IMG/VR virus record: IMGVR_UViG_3300042982_000004
Location: 1-46,228 of that record
Length of the DNA stretch: 46,228 nucleotides
DNA from: a virus
Strand: one strand, 5' to 3'
Shown here: in pieces, positions 3,593 through 27,418 of the stretch
How positions within the stretch are numbered: the first letter of the stretch is position 1
Layout of the letters: each line of letters opens with the position of its first letter
Program-made: the position numbers and the translations under genes
Notes under the pieces: model-generated
The model's database searches: none
What the model was told of the DNA's origin: nothing
The model's input: only the letters and a program-made list of their open reading frames with translations

Positions 3593-3957
3593 ATTTCCTC
3601 TCCTTCATCTGGTTTATTATATTCGTCAAAGAACTCGTTCACACGTCGGAAGTATTGATCACTCTCGACAAGGAACTCAGCCCAAACACGAACGTTTCTC
3701 AGGTAAACCTCTTCGTTCCAGTCACCTTCTTGGTAGGTATCAAACCATTCGAACTTGGTGTCCTGACTAACGTACTGTTTTTTCTCGTACAGGTTGATGA
3801 TGTTGTTTGCCCATTCAGTATAGCCTTTGCCCAGCAGCCAGTATGCCCAACTACCAACAGGCCAGTTGTCCATGAAATAGTCAGTGAAACCTTCACCAGC
3901 ATCCATTTCCCAGTTGCGGATAGCTTCAACCATAGCGTCTACAGTACGTTCGATCAT
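3589..3957 (-). CDS. Unknown 122-residue aromatic acidic protein
   Basis: I do not recognise this protein. It is unusually rich in Trp and Tyr (for example D-N-W-P-V-G-S-W-A-Y-W near residue 30) and has an acidic C-terminus (E-Y-N-K-P-D-E-G-E-E-I). It looks helical and soluble, with no membrane segment. It is coupled to the MazG-like gene by an ATGA overlap. No function can be assigned. Confidence 0.6.
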   Translation of the reverse strand: MIERTVDAMVEAIRNWEMDAGEGFTDYFMDNWPVGSWAYWLLGKGYTEWANNIINLYEKKQYVSQDTKFEWFDTYQEGDWNEEVYLRNVRVWAEFLVESDQYFRRVNEFFDEYNKPDEGEEI

Positions 3958-3967
3958 GTTCTACTCC

Positions 3968-4162
3968 TTAGCAGTTGTAAGAGCTAGACTGCCAACCCGA
4001 GTAGGTGGCAGTGGTGTCATAATTCTGACCACCTTCCAGAGTAATGTCAAATGGAATCTCAAACTCGTCTGAGATAGCACGTGCTTCAGCGTGCAGCACC
4101 TGAATGGAGTGCAGCAGGCCAGCGATGATGGTGGTTGCTTCTTCATGGGAATTGATAGACAT
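3968..4162 (-). CDS. Small protein of the W-x-x-S-S-x-x-C family (copy 4, minimal)
   Basis: A 64-residue protein, the shortest member, which probably shows the bare domain: one helix (residues about 6-32), then S-D-E-F-E-I-P-F-D-I-T, a Gly/Tyr/Thr linker and the C-terminus G-W-Q-S-S-S-Y-N-C. The ATG at 4162 has AAGGAG 7 bases upstream; the longer frame upstream would start at GTG inside the glutaredoxin gene. It lies directly downstream of glutaredoxin, which is suggestive given the terminal Cys, but a link is only inference. Confidence 0.7.
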   Translation of the reverse strand: MSINSHEEATTIIAGLLHSIQVLHAEARAISDEFEIPFDITLEGGQNYDTTATYSGWQSSSYNC

Positions 4163-4172
4163 TTGACTCTCC

Positions 4173-4400
4173 TTAAACGAGTTGATCGATAGTTGCGAAG
4201 GTGAAACCCTTACCACCCTGAACGATCAGAGGGAAGGTGCGGAAACCCATCAGGCCCACTTCATCGAGTGCATCCATCAGGTCTTCCATTGTGTAATCTT
4301 TGTCCAGTTGTTTGTACTGGAACTCAATGTTGCGAGACTTTAGCACAGCTTTGGCCTGTTCGCAAGAGGCACATTGAGATTTTCCGTAAATCGTTACCAC
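4173..4400 (-). CDS. Glutaredoxin
   Basis: A 75-residue protein with a thioredoxin fold of glutaredoxin/NrdH size. The redox motif C-A-S-C is at residues 10-13, the cis-Pro motif appears in F-R-T-F-P-L, and the following G-G-K-G-F-T-F resembles the glutathione-binding turn. Known: such phage proteins reduce the disulfide formed in class Ia ribonucleotide reductase. NrdA and NrdB are encoded at 6.1-8.9 kb on the same strand, which supports that role. The ribosome site AAGGAG lies 7 bases upstream. Confidence 0.9.
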   Translation of the reverse strand: MVTIYGKSQCASCEQAKAVLKSRNIEFQYKQLDKDYTMEDLMDALDEVGLMGFRTFPLIVQGGKGFTFATIDQLV

Positions 4401-4411
4401 GTTGTTCTCCT

Positions 4412-4597
4412 TTAGTAAGAAATTCTTGGTTCTGGCAGCCCTACAGAGCTACGGCACACTTCAGCCCCGCTGACGTAAGTGCGAACCACAATAGAGCGAC
4501 CATCATAATCCCAATCAGTGTCAATTTCAACCTGAATGTTATCGGTGATCAGTTGCAGGATTTGCTCCTTGAGCAATGGGTAGTCTTCCAAGTCCAT
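4412..4597 (-). CDS. Unknown 61-residue protein
   Basis: I do not recognise this protein. It is a small acidic protein with a helix (L-L-K-E-Q-I-L-Q-L-I) followed by a beta-rich half (VEIDTDWDYDGRSIVVRTYV). The ATG at 4597 overlaps the stop of the zinc-ribbon gene as TGATG. It ends just before the glutaredoxin ribosome site. No function is assigned. Confidence 0.55.
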   Translation of the reverse strand: MDLEDYPLLKEQILQLITDNIQVEIDTDWDYDGRSIVVRTYVSGAEVCRSSVGLPEPRISY

Positions 4598-4728
4598 CAG
4601 TAATCACCTTCATCAAGGTAGTTAAGCCCTTCGGCATCTTCGTCCCACTCATCATCTAAGAAAGTGTCGCACTCAGGGCACCACACATCGTCTTCATCAA
4701 CGAACGCACCGCATTCATGACACAGCAT
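4597..4728 (-). CDS. Tiny zinc-ribbon protein
   Basis: A 43-residue protein with two knuckles, C-H-E-C (residues 3-6) and C-P-E-C (17-20). They are followed by a very acidic tail (D-D-E-W-D-E-D-A-E). This is a rubredoxin/zinc-ribbon-like fold reduced to its metal site. The start overlaps the upstream stop as TAATG and the stop overlaps the next start as TGATG, so the reading frame fits tightly into the operon. It probably makes protein-protein or nucleic-acid contacts; no specific role is visible. Confidence 0.7.
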   Translation of the reverse strand: MLCHECGAFVDEDDVWCPECDTFLDDEWDEDAEGLNYLDEGDY

Positions 4729-5066
4729 TATTGATCCTCCTTCAACTCTTTGGTTTTGAACTCAATGTCGCGGATGTGACTATACCACATCTCAGTCATT
4801 TGTCTACGCATATCTTCCAGTTCCTGAATCATCAGGCTCACCTTGGTCAGACGCTTTTCGAAGCTCTTCTGATCGTAGGCACAGAAGTCTAGCTTAACTG
4901 GCTCTCCGTGGCAAGCACGGAATTGAACGTAAGCTTCCAGATCAGGCGTGATCTTACCCTGATACCCAACGTGCAGGTTTTTCACCAGAGGTGTCTCGAC
5001 CTGAACCACCATGCTACCAGTTTCATCGGCAGATGGCGAGAGGAATTGCTTGCTAACGTATCTCAT
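4728..5066 (-). CDS. Unknown 112-residue protein with C-terminal coiled coil
   Basis: I do not recognise this protein. The N-terminal half is beta-like; the C-terminal 50 residues (from about residue 62) form a charged helix or coiled coil (L-M-I-Q-E-L-E-D-M-R-R-Q-M-T-E-M). The ATG at 5066 has an AAGGAGG site close upstream; the longer frame from 5114 would start inside the previous small gene. A sigma70-like promoter at 5142-5170 could drive it directly. Confidence 0.6.
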   Translation of the reverse strand: MRYVSKQFLSPSADETGSMVVQVETPLVKNLHVGYQGKITPDLEAYVQFRACHGEPVKLDFCAYDQKSFEKRLTKVSLMIQELEDMRRQMTEMWYSHIRDIEFKTKELKEDQ

Positions 5067-5194
5067 ACGCCTCCTTGAATCAACAGAGCACCAACCACCA
5101 TCCCAACAACACACACTGGAACGTAGTCTTTAGGGAGGGTGATGATACCGAGAGCACACCCCATTGTCAAGCCCCAACCCATAATAATTTCCAT
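5063..5194 (-). CDS. Possible tiny membrane protein
   Basis: A 43-residue frame with two hydrophobic stretches (I-I-M-G-W-G-L-T-M-G-C-A-L-G and V-C-V-V-G-M-V-V-G-A-L-L), an AAGGTG ribosome site and an ATGA overlap with the next gene. This fits a two-pass membrane protein. Against it, a good promoter (5142-5170) lies inside the frame, so the stretch could be mostly regulatory. Both readings can be true. Confidence 0.45.
   Translation of the reverse strand: MEIIMGWGLTMGCALGIITLPKDYVPVCVVGMVVGALLIQGGV
5142..5170 (-). promoter_or_regulatory. Sigma70-like promoter
   Basis: Leftward. TTGACA (5170-5165), 17-bp spacer, TATCAT (5147-5142). The -10 box sits between the arms of a GGGTG/CACCC dyad. It is placed to transcribe the genes from 5066 down to the glutaredoxin. 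Confidence 0.6.
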
Positions 5195-5196
5195 TT

Positions 5197-5418
5197 TTAA
5201 TTCACCTTGTCCAAGTAAAAGCCTTCCCAAATACACAGCTTCATAATTTCGTCACCGTAGGTGAAGTCCTCAGTGAAAACGTACACAGTCTTTTTGGTGT
5301 TGCTCACGTACCGCTTCTCTTTCCACTCACCCTTACCTTGTCGCATCATACAGCCTGCAACAACAGCGTCAACCTTTGCAACCATGATTCCGTTGTTAGT
5401 GCGGATGTAGTAGGCCAT
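5197..5418 (-). CDS. Unknown 73-residue protein
   Basis: I do not recognise this protein. It is a small basic-to-neutral protein beginning M-A-Y-Y-I-R-T-N-N-G and containing K-E-K-R-Y-V-S-N-T-K-K-T-V-Y-V-F, which looks like a compact beta fold. The stop is 2 bases before the next small frame, and it follows the 80-residue gene by 1 base. No function is assigned. Confidence 0.55.
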   Translation of the reverse strand: MAYYIRTNNGIMVAKVDAVVAGCMMRQGKGEWKEKRYVSNTKKTVYVFTEDFTYGDEIMKLCIWEGFYLDKVN

Positions 5419-5419
5419 G

Positions 5420-5662
5420 TTAAATCTCCAGATCAGCTTGATGTTCGTAACGTACTTGGAAGTTCCAAGCGTCCTTACAGGCTTTATTGTCGTGACCCGT
5501 TCGTGGAAAGGAATAGTAGACCATCACATCCCACTTGTCAACCCCATATCGCTCAGTTCGCTCGATCTTTGCTTCAATGCCCATTCCATCAGCCGAGTAC
5601 CAAATCTCGCCTTCGTTAAAGGCTGGCCCATCTGGTTTGTGGAATTTCTTTGCACCGTTCAT
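5420..5662 (-). CDS. Unknown 80-residue protein
   Basis: I do not recognise this protein. It has a beta-rich middle (E-I-W-Y-S-A-D-G-M-G-I-E-A-K) and an acidic/aromatic end. I chose the ATG at 5662; the frame runs on upstream, but that part lies in the terminator-promoter region 5663-5725 and overlaps the end of the preceding gene. The likely ribosome site GAGGGG is the 3' arm of the terminator hairpin, so in readthrough transcripts the hairpin would hide it, while transcripts from the local promoter would expose it. Confidence 0.55.
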   Translation of the reverse strand: MNGAKKFHKPDGPAFNEGEIWYSADGMGIEAKIERTERYGVDKWDVMVYYSFPRTGHDNKACKDAWNFQVRYEHQADLEI

Positions 5663-5699
5663 GAAAAATCCCCTCACACCGTTTCTGATGGAGGGGATT
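5663..5699 (-). terminator. Rho-independent terminator
   Basis: On the minus strand AATCCCCTC (5699-5691) pairs perfectly over 9 bp with GAGGGGATT (5675-5667), with a 15-nt loop and TTTTTC after it. A promoter -10 box overlaps the first arm, so a transcript started there lacks the complete hairpin. Confidence 0.85.
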
Positions 5700-5725
5700 C
5701 TATACCCGTTAAGGCGGGCCGTCAA
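5697..5725 (-). promoter_or_regulatory. Sigma70-like promoter overlapping a terminator
   Basis: Leftward. TTGACG (5725-5720), 17-bp spacer, TAGAAT (5702-5697). The expected start, about 5690, falls in the loop of the terminator. It also overlaps the 3' end of the gene at 5709-6065. Confidence 0.65.
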
Positions 5726-6065
5726 GTCCTGCTTGGTAAGAATCGAAGGCAATTCGTGTCACGGTTTGCGTGTACACCTTCGTTACCGGGTCTTTGGTCA
5801 GAGCTTGGCTGTTGTAAGCGATAAGCTCAGCACCCATTTCAGTCTCAAACTGAGCCTGTAGGGCCATCAGGGTTTCCAGATCACGTGTATCCTCCGCTCC
5901 GTCAAGGAACGTGGCGTAGACGCGACTCTGAGCAGGCGAGAGGCCAATGCTGAAGTCAGGTGCTACGGTGTCACCCACAAGGGCGATTGTGCAGCCAGCG
6001 TTGTTTACAGTAGTTGTCAGCGTTCCGCCTGTTGTCAGGACGGTTGTGTTGATTACTGGTGTCAT
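5709..6065 (-). CDS. Unknown 118-residue protein
   Basis: I do not recognise this protein. The N-terminus is Thr/Val-rich and beta-like (T-V-L-T-T-G-G-T-L-T-T-T-V). The rest is mixed, with a helix around L-E-T-L-M-A-L-Q-A-Q-F-E-T-E. It has no signal peptide and no metal motif. The ATG at 6065 has GGAG upstream. It sits between the terminator after nrdA and the terminator-promoter at 5663-5725, so it forms a one-gene segment. Confidence 0.6.
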   Translation of the reverse strand: MTPVINTTVLTTGGTLTTTVNNAGCTIALVGDTVAPDFSIGLSPAQSRVYATFLDGAEDTRDLETLMALQAQFETEMGAELIAYNSQALTKDPVTKVYTQTVTRIAFDSYQAGLDGPP

Positions 6066-6078
6066 TTCATTTCTCCAT

Positions 6079-7869: not shown

Positions 7870-8921
7870 TCAAGTTCTCCTTTGTCAATATACCCTCTAA
7901 TAAACCCTTGAGTGTCCCAAGAACTCTCATACTCCATACCCATACCCGGAGTGAAGAAGTCCACCATCTTGTACGAGTCAGTTCCCAACTTAAACCATTC
8001 TGTGATTGGAGAAGTTGCTTCAGGGAAAGGCAAGTCGAGGCCGAGCCTCTCCGCAAAGACGTTCAAACGAACTTTGATGTAGTTCTTGAAGTCATCCTTT
8101 GTCATCCCGTTCAGCGTATCTTCCAAGAACGCAAGATCAATGATCAAACATTCATGTTCATATGCATATTGAATCGCTTTGTAAATCTGTTCAACACGCT
8201 TAGTGTCTTCACGTAGAGGACGACCAAGTTCTTTATAGTGTTGGTTGATTGCCCAAGCAGCAGCGAATCCATGCAAGTCTTCATCAATAGCAGATTGGTT
8301 GGTGCCTCTCACTACAACAGGAAGTTTGTTGTATCCGTTAGATTGGAAACTCTTCAAGATTGCAAAGCTGGCAAACAACAGTGCTGTTTCAGTCATCGAG
8401 AATACGATAACAGATAGTAGTTTATCTTCACCAGACAGCACACTCTCAAGCCATTCCACACGTGCAGCCAACTCAGGGTTTGCAGCGTATGCACGGTAGT
8501 GCTCGTCTTTATCCAATCCAAGTTGCACGTTAAGTTGGTTGTAGAAGCGAGCGTGAACTTGAAGTTCGAATGCAGCGAATGCCGCAGCCATTGCTTTAGC
8601 TTCTGGAGTTGGGAACACTTTGATGAACAAGCCATTCCAGAACTCTTCACCAACAATCAACTCATACTTGAGGAACAGTTGGAGAACAAACTTTACAGCG
8701 TGTAGTTGAGCAGGTGTTAGATCAAACAGAAGTTGCATTCTGTCTAGTTCAACTTTCATTTCTGTGTTAGTCCAGAACTGTTTGTCAAACTGTTTATCAG
8801 CAAATTCAAAGAACTGTGGGTAGACAGTAGCATAACTATCCGTCTGTGTCATGATGCGTGTCTTAGCATCAAAGTCGAACGGTAGCCCCATTGCTACCGC
8901 TTCTAGTTGCTCAGTGGACAT
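7866..8921 (-). CDS. nrdB: Ribonucleotide reductase small subunit (ferritin-like)
   Basis: A 351-residue protein that supplies the radical to NrdA. Recognisable elements are the H-A-R-F-Y segment with the candidate radical Tyr four residues after a His, M-T-E-T-A-L-L-F-A-S-F-A (second helix-pair Glu), and E-D-L-H-G-F (E-x-x-H ligand pair). One oddity is that the first ligand helix reads F-E-L-Q-V-H, so the Glu is four residues before the His rather than three. The first carboxylate appears to be a Glu (K-Y-E-L-I-V-G-E-E) where E. coli has Asp84. The order nrdB then nrdA with a GTGA overlap suggests balanced synthesis. Confidence 0.93.
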   Translation of the reverse strand: MSTEQLEAVAMGLPFDFDAKTRIMTQTDSYATVYPQFFEFADKQFDKQFWTNTEMKVELDRMQLLFDLTPAQLHAVKFVLQLFLKYELIVGEEFWNGLFIKVFPTPEAKAMAAAFAAFELQVHARFYNQLNVQLGLDKDEHYRAYAANPELAARVEWLESVLSGEDKLLSVIVFSMTETALLFASFAILKSFQSNGYNKLPVVVRGTNQSAIDEDLHGFAAAWAINQHYKELGRPLREDTKRVEQIYKAIQYAYEHECLIIDLAFLEDTLNGMTKDDFKNYIKVRLNVFAERLGLDLPFPEATSPITEWFKLGTDSYKMVDFFTPGMGMEYESSWDTQGFIRGYIDKGELE

Positions 8922-8930
8922 TAGTATTCC

Positions 8931-9269
8931 TTAATCGTCTGTAGGAGTTAGTGTACCCTGATAACTCATAATACGTAGAGTATGTCTCAGGCTCTTGTCT
9001 TTAGTTGCTTCAATTTGAGCCTCCAAACTTGCACACCCAGTTGCCAACCAAGCAGCATCAGTGCGTTCAAATCCTTCAACTCTGATTCCGTAGTATTCGA
9101 TCTTGTTAATTGTTCGATGATTACAAGCTACAAGTTCATAGCCAAGCTTCACATCAAAACCATTTGTAAACAGAATACTCTCAAAGATTTTCTTGTTGTC
9201 AATCTCTACTGCTTCTTTAAATCCATCGACCATTTCAAGATCGTAGAAACTCAGTGCATAATCGGCCAT
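8931..9269 (-). CDS. Unknown 112-residue protein
   Basis: I do not recognise this protein. It is soluble and acidic, with an N-terminal helix-rich part (Y-D-L-E-M-V-D-G-F-K-E-A) and the segment G-Y-E-L-V-A-C-N-H-R-T-I-N-K-I-E-Y-Y-G. It lies between thyX (1-base overlap, TAATG) and nrdB, so a link to dNTP supply is possible, but no motif supports a specific role. Confidence 0.6.
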   Translation of the reverse strand: MADYALSFYDLEMVDGFKEAVEIDNKKIFESILFTNGFDVKLGYELVACNHRTINKIEYYGIRVEGFERTDAAWLATGCASLEAQIEATKDKSLRHTLRIMSYQGTLTPTDD

Positions 9270-24875: not shown

Positions 24876-25184
24876 TCATTGCCCCTTCGCCCACTGGACG
24901 GCTAGTTTGATTACGTTCCCATGACAGGGATTTGGCTCACAGTAGCAGGCAAGTCGTTTTCCGTCAAGCTCTTTCAGCATTTCTATGGTGATAAATCCAT
25001 CAGAGATTTGCGACCACAAATACTTCCGGTATTCCATGATTGCCTGATGAACGGTAGACACTCTGTATTGTGCCCGAGTACCATCCTTATGGCTGTATGG
25101 GTTTCCCCACTTGCTTCCCCTTCCTATGTATACAATGTCAGGGTCATCCATGTTCACTTTGTACTTATTAACCACTTGGCACAT
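24876..25184 (-). CDS. DUF4326 protein
   Basis: A 102-residue protein with the domain's conserved points: V-Y-I-G-R-G-S-K-W-G-N-P-Y (residues about 18-30), a middle helix with Y-R-K-Y-L, and L-A-C-Y-C-E-P-N-P-C-H-G-N-V near the end, where the Cys and His residues look like a metal site. Known: the family is widespread in phages and bacteria, with no settled function. It is expressed through the long structured leader at 25185-25480 and has AGGAG before the ATG. Confidence 0.8.
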   Translation of the reverse strand: MCQVVNKYKVNMDDPDIVYIGRGSKWGNPYSHKDGTRAQYRVSTVHQAIMEYRKYLWSQISDGFITIEMLKELDGKRLACYCEPNPCHGNVIKLAVQWAKGQ

Positions 25185-25193
25185 ACATTGCTC

Positions 25194-25308
25194 CTATCCA
25201 AAATCAGTTTCGTATTGTCGAGATAAACCAATCCCAAGGCTTGCCATACAGACCAACGTCTGCCTCGACATGCCTACAGGTTTATCTCATTAGCTATCCA
25301 AAATTCAG
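25194..25308. repeat. Direct repeats 100 bp apart flanking a long stem
   Basis: CTATCCAAAA-TCAG at 25194-25207 and CTATCCAAAA-TTCAG at 25294-25308 are nearly identical, exactly 100 bp apart, and flank the 10-bp inverted repeat at 25220-25288. On the minus strand the downstream copy leads straight into the DUF4326 ribosome site. Confidence 0.6.
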
Positions 25309-25428
25309 ATCGCAAGTCGGCAGCATGGGCTGCTATAGATTGTGGTCCTTCCTCTGTGTTAGAGTCCGCCGTTCTGTTCCCACATTCAACCTCAGTTGCC
25401 CCTAACGGCTTACCTCTTCATAGGGCGT

Positions 25429-25450
25429 GTTCCCGCAGGACGGTGAGTGA
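25429..25450 (+). repeat. 22-nt motif, copy B
   Basis: Same start (GTTCCCGCA) and end pattern (ACGG-x-GAG-x-GA) as 22880-22901, with 18 of 22 bases identical. Here it lies 30-50 nt from the expected 5' end of the leader. Confidence 0.6.
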
Positions 25451-25486
25451 ACCCTTTCGGGTGACATGTCTCTCTGCGATTTGCCT

Positions 25487-25514
25487 ATAGTAGCATGGAA
25501 AGCCGTTCTGTCAA
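25487..25514 (-). promoter_or_regulatory. Leftward sigma70-like promoter (divergent pair)
   Basis: TTGACA (25514-25509), 16-bp spacer, TACTAT (25492-25487). It is back-to-back with the rightward promoter at 25541-25568; the two -35 boxes are 26 bp apart. Confidence 0.6.
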
Positions 25515-25540: not shown

Positions 25541-25568
25541 TTGACACGATTCCGAATTGCTGTAGACT
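25541..25568 (+). promoter_or_regulatory. Rightward sigma70-like promoter
   Basis: TTGACA (25541-25546), 16-bp spacer, TAGACT (25563-25568). The expected start, near 25575, leaves about 27 bases of leader with AAGGAG before the first rightward gene. Confidence 0.65.
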
Positions 25569-25601: not shown

Positions 25602-25952
25602 ATGTCGAAAACTACTATCGCTTCTGCTGTACTCGCTGGTTTCTCTCTGGCCGAACGTCTGCAAGAGTTGGGTGTACAAGATCAGAAGCTGTCTGACCTG
25701 ATCGGTGAACTGGCTAGCTCCCTCGGCGCTGTCATGGATTCTGTAGAGAAGGTTGACACTGCTGTTGGTATCGTTGGTCGTGCTGCACAGAACGATGACC
25801 TGCTGACTGTAGTCGAAGGCTGTGCTGTTATCAAGGGCGTGACCTCTGATCTGGTGTCTGACCAAGACAAGATCATGCAAGCGATGCTGTCTGAAGAAGA
25901 CCTCGCCATCATGCAACTGCTCCAGATTCTGCAAGCTGGGGGTATCCGTTAA
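25602..25952 (+). CDS. Unknown 116-residue helical protein
   Basis: I do not recognise this protein. It is all-helical and acidic, with regular hydrophobic spacing (L-S-D-L-I-G-E-L-A-S-S-L, D-K-I-M-Q-A-M-L). It is the first gene of the rightward island, 27 bases behind its promoter, with a good AAGGAG site, so it is likely made early and in quantity. It is coupled to the next gene by TAATG. Confidence 0.6.
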   Translation: MSKTTIASAVLAGFSLAERLQELGVQDQKLSDLIGELASSLGAVMDSVEKVDTAVGIVGRAAQNDDLLTVVEGCAVIKGVTSDLVSDQDKIMQAMLSEEDLAIMQLLQILQAGGIR

Positions 25953-26218: not shown

Positions 26219-26224
26219 CAAATG

Positions 26225-26247
26225 GCCCCCAGCAATGGGGGCTTTAT
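26225..26247 (+). terminator. Rightward rho-independent terminator
   Basis: GCCCCC (26225-26230) and GGGGGC (26237-26242) form a perfect stem with a 6-nt loop, followed by TTTATT. It lies between the two small genes and the RNA ligase, so the ligase may depend on readthrough. Confidence 0.8.
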
Positions 26248-26272
26248 TACGCCAAAATTTAAGGAGAATTAT

Positions 26273-27418
26273 ATGACTGAACGCTCTCTCGCCCGAGTCG
26301 TAAAGATTGATGAACTGGTCGCCATTGAAGGCGCTGATCGTATCGAACTGGCTATCGTTGGTGGCTGGCAGGTTGTTGTCCAGAAGGGATTGTATGTTGT
26401 TGGTAGTAAGGCCATCTACTTCGAAGTGGACTCGCTTCTGAATACTGAGAAGCCATGCTTCAATTCGCTGGCAACTCTGTCGAGCAAATTGCTGCACAAT
26501 ATCGATGGTGTGACATATGCTCGCATCAAAACCATGAAGCTGCGTAAGCAACTCTCGCAAGGCTTCTGTGTGCCACTGAGCGAGGCTGGTGTTGGTGCTG
26601 ACACTCCTGTTGACACTGACGTCACTAAACTGCTTGGTGTTCTCAAGTACGAGAAGACCGAAGAAAAGGAAATGAACAACAGTGGCGGAACTGGCGTCAA
26701 GTCTGGTACTACTGCTTTGGGCTTTCCTAAGTTCGTACCAAAGACTGACCAAACCCGAGTGCAGAACATCACTCACATGTACAACAAAGCTGTCGAGCAA
26801 GGAGAAGAATTTGAAGAATCTTTTAAGTTGGACGGAAGCTCTCTTACTGCGTTTGTTCATGACGGCGTGGCTGGGGTCGCTTCTCGTAACGTCGGTTTTC
26901 GGGTTGAAGCCGAAACACGCACTCTCTTTGCTACTGTCCGTCGTTTCCTTAGCCATTGTCGCACTCGCGGTATTCTTAATGCAAGGTGGGAACGTGTAAT
27001 TCCTGCTGACGACAATCAGTTCACTCAGATTGTTGCTGAGCAGGGTTTGATCGAAGCTATCCGTCGTGATGGTCGTAACCTTGCGATTCAAGGTGAGCTT
27101 GTAGGCCCAAGCATTCAGAAGAACTTTGAAGGGGTAGACAAGAACACTTTCTACTGCTACGATGTGTTCCTGATCGATGAGCAACGTTACATGCTGCCTG
27201 CTGAGCGTGTACAGTTCTGCCTTGACCAGCGTGTATTGCACGTCCCAATCAACTACACTGGCCCACTGAAAGCCGCTACTGTAGCTGACGCAATCGTTCG
27301 TGCTGATGGTCCGTCTGGTCTGAATGGCAAATACCGTGAAGGCTTTGTGTACAAATCAACAACCCGAGATTTCTCGTTCAAGGTGATCTCTAATGCATAC
27401 TTGCTGAAGGAAGAGTGA
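26273..27418 (+). CDS. RNA ligase (DRB0094/Rnl5-type)
   Basis: A 381-residue protein. The N-terminal domain (residues 1-60: L-A-R-V-V-K-I-D-E-L, A-D-R-I-E-L-A-I-V-G-G-W) is the OB-like part typical of this family. The adenylyltransferase core has motif I F-K185-L-D-G-S-S, a motif III-like F-Y-C-Y-D-V-F, motif IV E-G-F-V-Y-K-S and motif V F-S-F-K-V-I-S. It would seal nicks in RNA or RNA-DNA duplexes using ATP. In phages such ligases counter host RNA cleavage, which is an inference here. The ATG at 26273 has AAGGAG; the longer frame runs through the terminator and is rejected. Confidence 0.88.
   Translation: MTERSLARVVKIDELVAIEGADRIELAIVGGWQVVVQKGLYVVGSKAIYFEVDSLLNTEKPCFNSLATLSSKLLHNIDGVTYARIKTMKLRKQLSQGFCVPLSEAGVGADTPVDTDVTKLLGVLKYEKTEEKEMNNSGGTGVKSGTTALGFPKFVPKTDQTRVQNITHMYNKAVEQGEEFEESFKLDGSSLTAFVHDGVAGVASRNVGFRVEAETRTLFATVRRFLSHCRTRGILNARWERVIPADDNQFTQIVAEQGLIEAIRRDGRNLAIQGELVGPSIQKNFEGVDKNTFYCYDVFLIDEQRYMLPAERVQFCLDQRVLHVPINYTGPLKAATVADAIVRADGPSGLNGKYREGFVYKSTTRDFSFKVISNAYLLKEE

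Follow-up and report, generated by a model that had tools for sequence, protein, structure and literature searches.

In the plasmid ColE1, an rG stretch of the transcript RNA II is located far upstream in a loop (about -265 versus -20), as Masukata and Tomizawa (1990) reportedly described. The same authors (1986) are said to have found alternative alpha, beta and gamma pairings in RNA II, in which one strand has two like strands as partners. Replication origins have been mapped in few large lytic phages. In ColE1, pairing between the rG stretch of the RNA and a dC stretch in the template DNA is required, and R-loops serve at origins of phage T4 (PMC4412123). RNase H cleaves the persistent ColE1 hybrid, which DNA polymerase I then extends (PMC4412123; PMC3628316). 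Here we describe an RNA element in the IMG/VR virus record IMGVR_UViG_3300042982_000004, whose positions 1 to 46,228 form the whole stretch of DNA analyzed, hereafter the window. The element is a spacer with two divergent promoter-like sites on one side and an open reading frame (ORF) of the DUF4326 family on the other, and it reads on the minus strand at approximately 25485-25190. It may represent an RNA that has not been described before and that helps to start phage DNA copying. Our best explanation, which we regard as roughly an even call, is that it marks a phage replication origin as a cis-acting, pseudoknotted pre-primer (R-loop) RNA.

The spacer is an RNA gene, and the structural features of its product are listed here by window position. 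Pairing percentages and counts of double changes refer to an alignment of 49 copies.

25487..25514, minus strand: sigma-70-like promoter of the RNA, by consensus match (TTGACA at 25514, 16 nucleotides, TACTAT ending at 25487, TG before the -10 element)
25186..25485, minus strand: entire RNA element, with its extent as matched by covariance model R1, which includes the window copy (score of 286 bits over model positions 1-299)
25433..25479, minus strand: P1 domain, TCGCAG/CTGCGG enclosing the nearly invariant GAGAxATGTC ... CACTCACCG and a variable hairpin that here has a GNRA loop; P1 99.7% paired, double changes at 5 of 6 pairs
25398..25426, minus strand: P2, GCCC/GGGC enclosing the conserved TATGAAGAGG and the P3 5' strand; 94.7% paired, double changes at 4 of 4 pairs
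25368..25409, minus strand: P3, GCCGTT/AACGGC (25409-25404 / 25373-25368), the pseudoknot helix crossing P2 and P4; 98% paired, double changes at 5 of 5 counted pairs
25384..25393, minus strand: Q, GAGGTTGAAT, the same sequence as the P7 3' strand, identified by a shared length above shuffled values
25341..25384, minus strand: P4, TGTGG/CCACA; 100% paired, double changes at 5 of 5 pairs
25364-25352, minus strand: P5 hairpin within P4, from covarying alignment columns 130-154
25320..25333, minus strand: P6 hairpin, GCAGC/GCTGC (25333-25329 / 25324-25320); 99.5% paired, double changes at 4 of 5 pairs
25294..25308, minus strand: R1, first copy of a direct repeat, CTGAATTTTGGATAG, by repeat comparison
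25220..25288, minus strand: P7-P8-P9 hairpin domain separating R1 and R2, with a 10-bp P7 at 25288-25279 / 25229-25220 (GAGATAAACC/GGTTTATCTC); P7 97.9%, P8 88.7% and P9 92.8% paired
25194..25207, minus strand: R2, second copy of the direct repeat, CTGATTTTGGATAG, by repeat comparison, overlapping the beginning of the DUF4326 Shine-Dalgarno region

Folding of the window's RNA copy alone does not exceed chance on the minus strand (z -0.76; 22 of 100 shuffles equal or better), and on the plus strand yields a z of -1.62, with 9 of 100 shuffles equal or better. The fold is instead defined by comparison of homologs, among which are two types: copy A, the type present in the window, and copy B, which occupies a different junction. 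From 35 distinct copies that passed, an alignment of 31 was built by omitting L020 (which is truncated at its 5' end), L027, L038 and L054, and the misaligned P5 was left out of pair counts. This alignment supports a fold of 52 pairs, with 94.5% of cells paired, both-sided changes at 38 of the 52 pairs, and a covariation score of 0.478 compared with 0.197 ± 0.009 in shuffled and 0.066-0.080 in slid alignments. A larger alignment of A and B copies from 49 loci, which excludes the YS35 B copy (equal in score to that of phage MK) and loci found later, gives 51 pairs with 96.3% of cells paired, both-sided changes at 39 of 51 pairs, 526 doubly changed cells versus 155 in shuffles, and a score of 0.587 versus 0.199. 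Fitting this larger alignment to the nested helices biases it in their favor; P3 lies outside the model and still contributes 57 doubly changed cells. The strands follow one another in the order P2-5', P3-5', P2-3', P4-5', P3-3', P5 and P4-3', such that P3 crosses both P2 and P4 to form an interlocking pseudoknot core, after which come the P6 hairpin and the long P7-P8-P9 hairpin. At the level of sequence comparison, these data establish a pseudoknotted RNA fold of about 300 nucleotides.

Much of what a first-pass annotation had read from the window alone is therefore borne out by this covariation in homologs, the kind of check that it had proposed. The separate stems that it listed are all present, though on an RNA of the minus strand, and where it placed a promoter ahead of the leader, a promoter-like site reads into the spacer. 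Its GNRA hairpin corresponds to 25462-25451, a variable element that is missing from some relatives, and P6 has likewise been lost from the A copies of the phiPsa374 group. Its GCCGTT/AACGGC stem proves to be the pseudoknot helix P3, its GCAGC/GCTGC hairpin is P6, and its 10-bp long-range stem is P7. The view that this is no mere spacer and forms a functional structured RNA agrees with covariation, with conservation, and with the promoter-like site (by consensus match only) that precedes 46 of 49 copies but just 30 of 490 stretches drawn at random from the same loci. Rfam, the check suggested for a possible new RNA, returned no family for the whole window at the gathering cut-off or for the RNA stretch at expect values (E) up to 10. 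Among 13 divergent loci compared with Rfam 15, only transfer RNAs (tRNAs) were found, in two of the loci, and L177 and L188 produced sub-threshold matches only. That annotation mentioned neither helices P2 and P4, which P3 crosses, nor the matched repeats, nor the second copy of the gene that related phages carry. Its proposal of an independent noncoding RNA comes closer to the data than its riboswitch-like leader, although the evidence favors a cis-acting RNA at replication origins, which it did not consider.

Homologs are numerous. A blastn search with the 1.1-kb neighborhood found 54 phage records, and one with the RNA at E up to 10 found 80, of which 71 are named Pseudomonas phages and the weakest are chance matches. 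A search begun from the P. aeruginosa phage MK matched 160 records at E up to 1, with 125 covering at least 80% of the query. The relatives retrieved are phages of about 90-102 kb, including Otagovirus and Flaumdravirus, and a recurring order in their retrieved regions is an RNA ligase or other gene with small genes, then the RNA, then DUF4326 or another gene. In each of 20 phage records chosen for carrying one copy, the covariance model finds exactly two; it finds none in phage PAK_P3. In MK, KIL1 and PaP1, copy B precedes tRNA genes by 0.7-1.3 kb. Of 15 IMG/VR records examined with the same model, four carry two full copies and eight carry one, while G010 has a weak match plus a partial one, G015 a chance-level match and G008 no copy. 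The window, a 46-kb fragment, has one.

Pattern searches extend the family further. One scan of IMG/VR yielded 28 stretches, with strong matches to a hidden Markov model in 19 and weak matches in 2. A second pattern, based on the nearly invariant 5' domain, yielded 94 stretches, and among the 80 listed were 64 new loci. Of the 41 places in these loci that the covariance model recognizes at E up to 1, 36 have E below 1e-5, and scores run from 256 bits down to chance. Very divergent members are L171, L177, L175, L217, L169, L188, L185, L192 and L214. Divergent loci keep the motif GAGAxATGTC...CTCACCG because the search pattern requires it, which does not apply to the rest of their match to the model or to their repeats. 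L188 is joined by blastn to phages phiPMW and vB_PpS_SYP, and seven Vibrio records were counted among the weak blastn matches of L177. A strict 5'-domain pattern applied to 84,980 prokaryote genomes returned three stretches (L246, L247 and L248), two of them within metagenome bins; L248 is Alpha proteobacterium AAP38 contig LJHR01000037. In L185, 16 tRNA matches at 3849-6075 share a strand with the RNA copy at 8846-9186 and follow it at a distance of about 3-5 kb, and tRNA genes are also downstream of the RNA in L163.

This RNA carries a pair of direct repeats, R1 before P7 and R2 after it, whose sequence varies among phages and yet matches within each RNA. The 49 copies have 27 distinct R2 cores, each of which recurs at R1 over 6-10 nucleotides, where 10 was the maximum scored. 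Among 41 distinct RNAs, the longest stretch shared by R1 and R2 is 7-12 nucleotides in every case and averages 9.83, compared with 5.68 ± 0.24 when R1 is matched with the R2 of another RNA, a difference equaled in 0 of 1000 trials. Stretches of at least 8 nucleotides are shared by 95% of own pairs and 10% of cross pairs. Even the A and B repeats of one phage have at most 7 nucleotides in common in 18 of 19 phages, the exception being MK with 11. A scripted scan of 20 distant loci, for which the estimated chance of a 9-nucleotide match is roughly 0.06 per locus, found an exact repeat of 9-16 nucleotides spaced by 68-109 bases in 12 loci (for example CCAGCCTAATTGAATT in L185), although L177/L201 and L217/L205 are near-duplicates among these. 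Four other loci have a repeat of 7-8 nucleotides, the choice was misplaced in L211 and L172, and none was returned for L171 and L193.

Consistent differences adjoin the matching cores, mostly of GATCTCAA type at R1 and of GAAACTCA type at R2, which implies selection for identity and led us to reject gene conversion as the source of the match. What might the repeats pair with? A strand complementary to them was found neither within the RNA nor within about 1 kb, where mean matches of 5.9 upstream and 5.8 downstream compare with null values of 5.9 and 6.0. The genomes of MK, KIL1, REC and phiPsa374 likewise have no complement beyond antisense matches of 10-11 nucleotides. The obvious partner for both repeats, out of the nucleic acids whose presence is known, is thus the template DNA of R1 and R2. 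Internal mismatches occur four times among 44 distinct repeat pairs, and all have G in R1 and A in R2, a combination that G-T wobble with the template of R2 would permit.

A second internal match involves Q, which shares a mean of 4.95 nucleotides with the P7 3' strand among the 41 distinct RNAs, compared with 3.82 ± 0.14 when shuffled between RNAs (0 of 500). The helix that Q can form with the P7 5' strand is also longer than in shuffles, at 5.07 versus 4.58 ± 0.12 (0 of 500). Because Q and the P7 3' strand have the same sequence, both are possible partners of the P7 5' strand, and we infer that the two exchange in time. Q-R1 and P7-3'-R2 form two similar modules. A T-loop reading of GAGGTTGAAT was dropped once Q was found to follow the P7 3' strand.

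The location of this RNA at replication origins is supported but unproven. The support comes from GC skew, an indirect measure, which was computed for the window together with 12 two-copy phages (of 20) and 8 IMG/VR records (of 15). In most of these genomes, the copies sit near switches from negative to positive skew, the kind of change in strand composition found where replication starts. Ranked within its own genome, the negative-to-positive jump at the RNA is above the 90th percentile for 8 of 13 A sites, 10 of 11 B sites (another B site, at an edge, is not counted) and 8 of 8 distant loci, and after gene orientation is regressed out by using crude ORF calls the corresponding values are 9 of 13, 10 of 11 and 5 of 8. 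Divergent gene junctions provide a direct contrast. The mean jump is 0.193 at 16 junctions with the RNA and 0.032 at 67 others in the same genomes with a similar change in orientation (Mann-Whitney p 6e-8, with the kinship of these related genomes uncorrected). RNA sites that lack a divergent junction also have a positive jump in 14 of 15 cases. When cumulative skew was computed with most fragments treated as circles, 6 of the 20 genomes had a minimum separated from a copy by 9-84 bases, and in 9 the minimum was closer to a copy than expected by chance (p < 0.05). In PaP1, a relative of MK, the minimum is 96 bases from copy A, for a total of 7 of 21 genomes at 100 bases or less.

We propose an RNA II-like pre-primer because a promoter-driven, structured cis RNA occurs at an origin-like site and carries an upstream copy of the sequence being transcribed, as in ColE1. 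The likeness would be one of working, not of descent. In this proposal, a host-type sigma-70 RNA polymerase would start just upstream of the RNA, and the nascent transcript would fold P1 through P6, with the P7 5' strand possibly pairing first with Q and then being captured by the P7 3' strand. Once R2 has been transcribed, the R1 RNA, brought adjacent by the P7-P9 hairpin, would pair with the template strand of R2 and anchor an RNA-DNA hybrid. This hybrid might open the DNA, or might, once cleaved, supply a 3' end for DNA synthesis, or both. Pairing of R1 with the template, formation of an R-loop and priming are each inferred here by analogy with ColE1. If the proposal is correct, phages of this kind would often have two such origins.

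Several observations weigh against this interpretation. In 6 of the 20 genomes (UAVern, Bitten, Pyxpy01, G001, G002 and G003), over 7 kb separate the cumulative-skew minimum from the nearest copy. Five of the 13 A sites fall below the 90th percentile of skew jump, namely K7A1 (43rd), UAVern (74th), Bitten (82nd), KoPa4 (84th) and KIL1 (88th), and the B copy of UAVern is at the 89th. A family-A DNA polymerase was found in only 10 of 22 records (several of the 22 are fragments), and one of the 10 is the RNA-less PAK_P3, so a close copy of the ColE1 route through DNA polymerase I is not general. The mismatch bias towards G in R1 and A in R2 could also come from pairing inside the R1 hairpin. Finally, the R1 core is unpaired at 0.60 versus 0.56 in shuffled sequence, which is no excess and leaves the idea that R1 occupies an open loop unsupported.

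Some of the same data could be accommodated by other functions. Phage HK022 has two cis-acting RNA copies, putL and putR, of about 70 nucleotides just behind its early promoters, and a similar antitermination role would have RNA polymerase read through terminators from two promoters that head long operons. The two copies in all 20 RNA-bearing records, the frequent promoter-like site and the long gene runs that the copies head (in PaP1, and on coarse maps of others) would fit. However, this role does not predict a skew switch larger than at other divergent junctions, leaves the R1/R2 match without a partner to explain it, and sits poorly with a TTGAC(A) -35-like element, seen by eye, that begins anew directly after the RNA in YS35, L019, L029 and L026. 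The element is also far larger and more complex than the put RNAs, for which we know of no link with skew or repeats, and we consider antitermination unlikely. We give slightly more credence to a trans-acting, perhaps oligomeric, ornate phage RNA of unspecified role, though this too is rather unlikely. GOLLD and ROOL are large pseudoknotted RNAs that are often phage-borne and near tRNA genes, and the present RNA resembles them in being large, pseudoknotted and phage-borne, with tRNA genes beyond copy B in MK, KIL1 and PaP1 and downstream in L163 and L185. Yet it is only about 300 nucleotides long, it has no Rfam match (Rfam includes GOLLD, ROOL and group I and II intron models), its two diverged copies are held at fixed, origin-like positions and skew switches, and its matched repeats are private to each copy.

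A self-processing RNA that splices or circularizes, with R1 and R2 as equivalent reaction sites and the P7 5' strand as an internal guide for Q and then for the P7 3' strand, could make use of the interlocking pseudoknots, the lock-step identity of Q and P7, the matching repeats and the RNA ligase gene nearby on the opposite strand (26222-27418, beyond two small intervening ORFs). It would explain neither skew nor position, the window stretch matches no Rfam ribozyme or intron even at E 10, and the search of the RNA and its flanks for a complement of the repeats revealed no guide for them; we find this the most improbable of the alternatives. Nearly as doubtful is a riboswitch or leader controlling DUF4326, in line with the riboswitch-like leader that the first-pass annotation had named as one possibility. 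Its attraction is that the first ORF after copy A is DUF4326-like in 19 of 30 cases (judged by reading, with Pfam applied only to the window, MK and L040), and that such a gene lies one ORF further on in the distant L040. The first ORF is a different one after the other 11 A copies (a GIY-YIG protein by Pfam in KIL1) and after all 19 B copies, where it encodes a CxxC protein of 62-66 residues in 18 cases (the one tested has no Pfam match) and another ORF in KIL1. Because the RNA persists with first ORFs other than DUF4326, it is hardly a DUF4326 riboswitch, and we reject that reading on gene context, since the RNA is not tied to one gene or pathway; the window stretch also matches no riboswitch family known to Rfam, and four loci have the new -35-like element noted above. 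DUF4326 itself has been proposed to act on ADP-ribose phosphates, a role that offers no link to the RNA (PMC9503650).

The window features that flank the RNA are as follows.

24876..25184, minus strand: DUF4326 gene, downstream of the RNA (Pfam PF14216, E 4e-21)
25541..25568, plus strand: divergent promoter-like site of the plus-strand ORF 25602-25952, by consensus match

Downstream of DUF4326 and on the same strand, a small ORF at 24024-24266 matches the Pfam GAAD (GTPase-associated adaptor domain) at E 1.3e-08. In the divergent subfamily of L171, L177 and L201, the next ORF after the RNA has 496 amino acids, and a 70-residue piece from L177 matches ResIII/DEAD helicase. Elsewhere, endonuclease-like ORFs start tens of bases past R2, at 1879-2019 in KIL1 (L002), 1990-2556 in L018 and 9075-9803 in L040, and after copy A in L039 and Y1-MI, as if mobile endonuclease genes inserted at the 3' end of the RNA. 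The L040 ORF matches Pfam MUG113 and scores below the cut-off for T5orf172. No Pfam match was obtained with 75 residues of the KIL1 copy-B ORF, which, like similar ORFs in L039 and Y1-MI, was judged endonuclease-like by eye. The records of 16Q, PaP1, KIL1, Bitten and K7A1 annotate small hypothetical coding sequences within or across the RNA element on either strand, and these are probably not genes. Phage YS35 (MF974178; L011:2660-2672) has a 13-nucleotide 'sRNA' annotation, without a function, inside copy A. A possible source of this annotation is the 11-nucleotide tRNA-like stretch described for PAK_P3 sRNA2 in the available text of PMC4933390.

That source reports sRNA1 and sRNA2 of PAK_P3 as Pseudomonas phage RNAs detected by RNA sequencing (PMC4933390). 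Because the covariance model finds no match in PAK_P3, they are not the RNA described here, and identity with them was rejected. Antisense RNAs of PAK_P4 are named in the accessible portion of another paper, where none can be matched to this element (PMC12197685). No title or abstract describes the RNA in the literature searched on Pseudomonas phage noncoding RNAs, DUF4326 phages, GOLLD and ROOL, and structured-RNA or R-loop origins, a search in which subscription journals were mostly uncovered and results for Pakpunavirus and PAK_P4 were largely off-topic.

A broader hypothesis, which we advance tentatively and consider less probable than the pre-primer role itself, is that tailed phages include a large unrecognized class with RNA-addressed origins. 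In such phages, a stretch of RNA would repeat, and pair with, the template ahead of it in place of a sequence-specific initiator protein, and the recognition sequence could drift provided that both copies drift together. If true, every origin would be privately addressed, even within one phage. Should the pre-primer reading hold, the RNA would locate origins from sequence alone in many sequenced Pseudomonas phages and distant relatives, constitute a new and widespread class of structured RNA, and allow RNA-addressed initiation to be put to a clean genetic test. Were the origin role to prove mistaken, a pseudoknotted RNA that occurs twice per genome with mutually matching repeats would still be an unusual constraint that calls for explanation.

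Among described systems, the R-loop origins oriF and oriG of T4 are similar in that they belong to a phage and combine a promoter with a downstream element at which the transcript is hybridized, whereas a large conserved RNA fold is not described for T4 in the parts of PMC4412123 consulted. The proposal itself follows ColE1 RNA II. The RNA stretch has no Rfam match at E up to 10, in a comparison for which the presence of an RNA II model in Rfam was unchecked and no direct alignment with RNA II was made, and the resemblance concerns architecture. Both are structured cis RNAs with a sigma-70 promoter (here a promoter-like site) directly upstream and an origin or origin-like position. Both carry an upstream stretch that matches a downstream stretch, and that by its sequence should thus be able to pair with the template of the latter, and both, if the reported alpha, beta and gamma pairings are a guide, have one strand (here the P7 5' strand) with two alternative like partners. 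The phage RNAs differ from RNA II in that their repeats may be of any sequence and change together, and in that they belong to lytic phages and occur twice per genome in the Pseudomonas phages examined.
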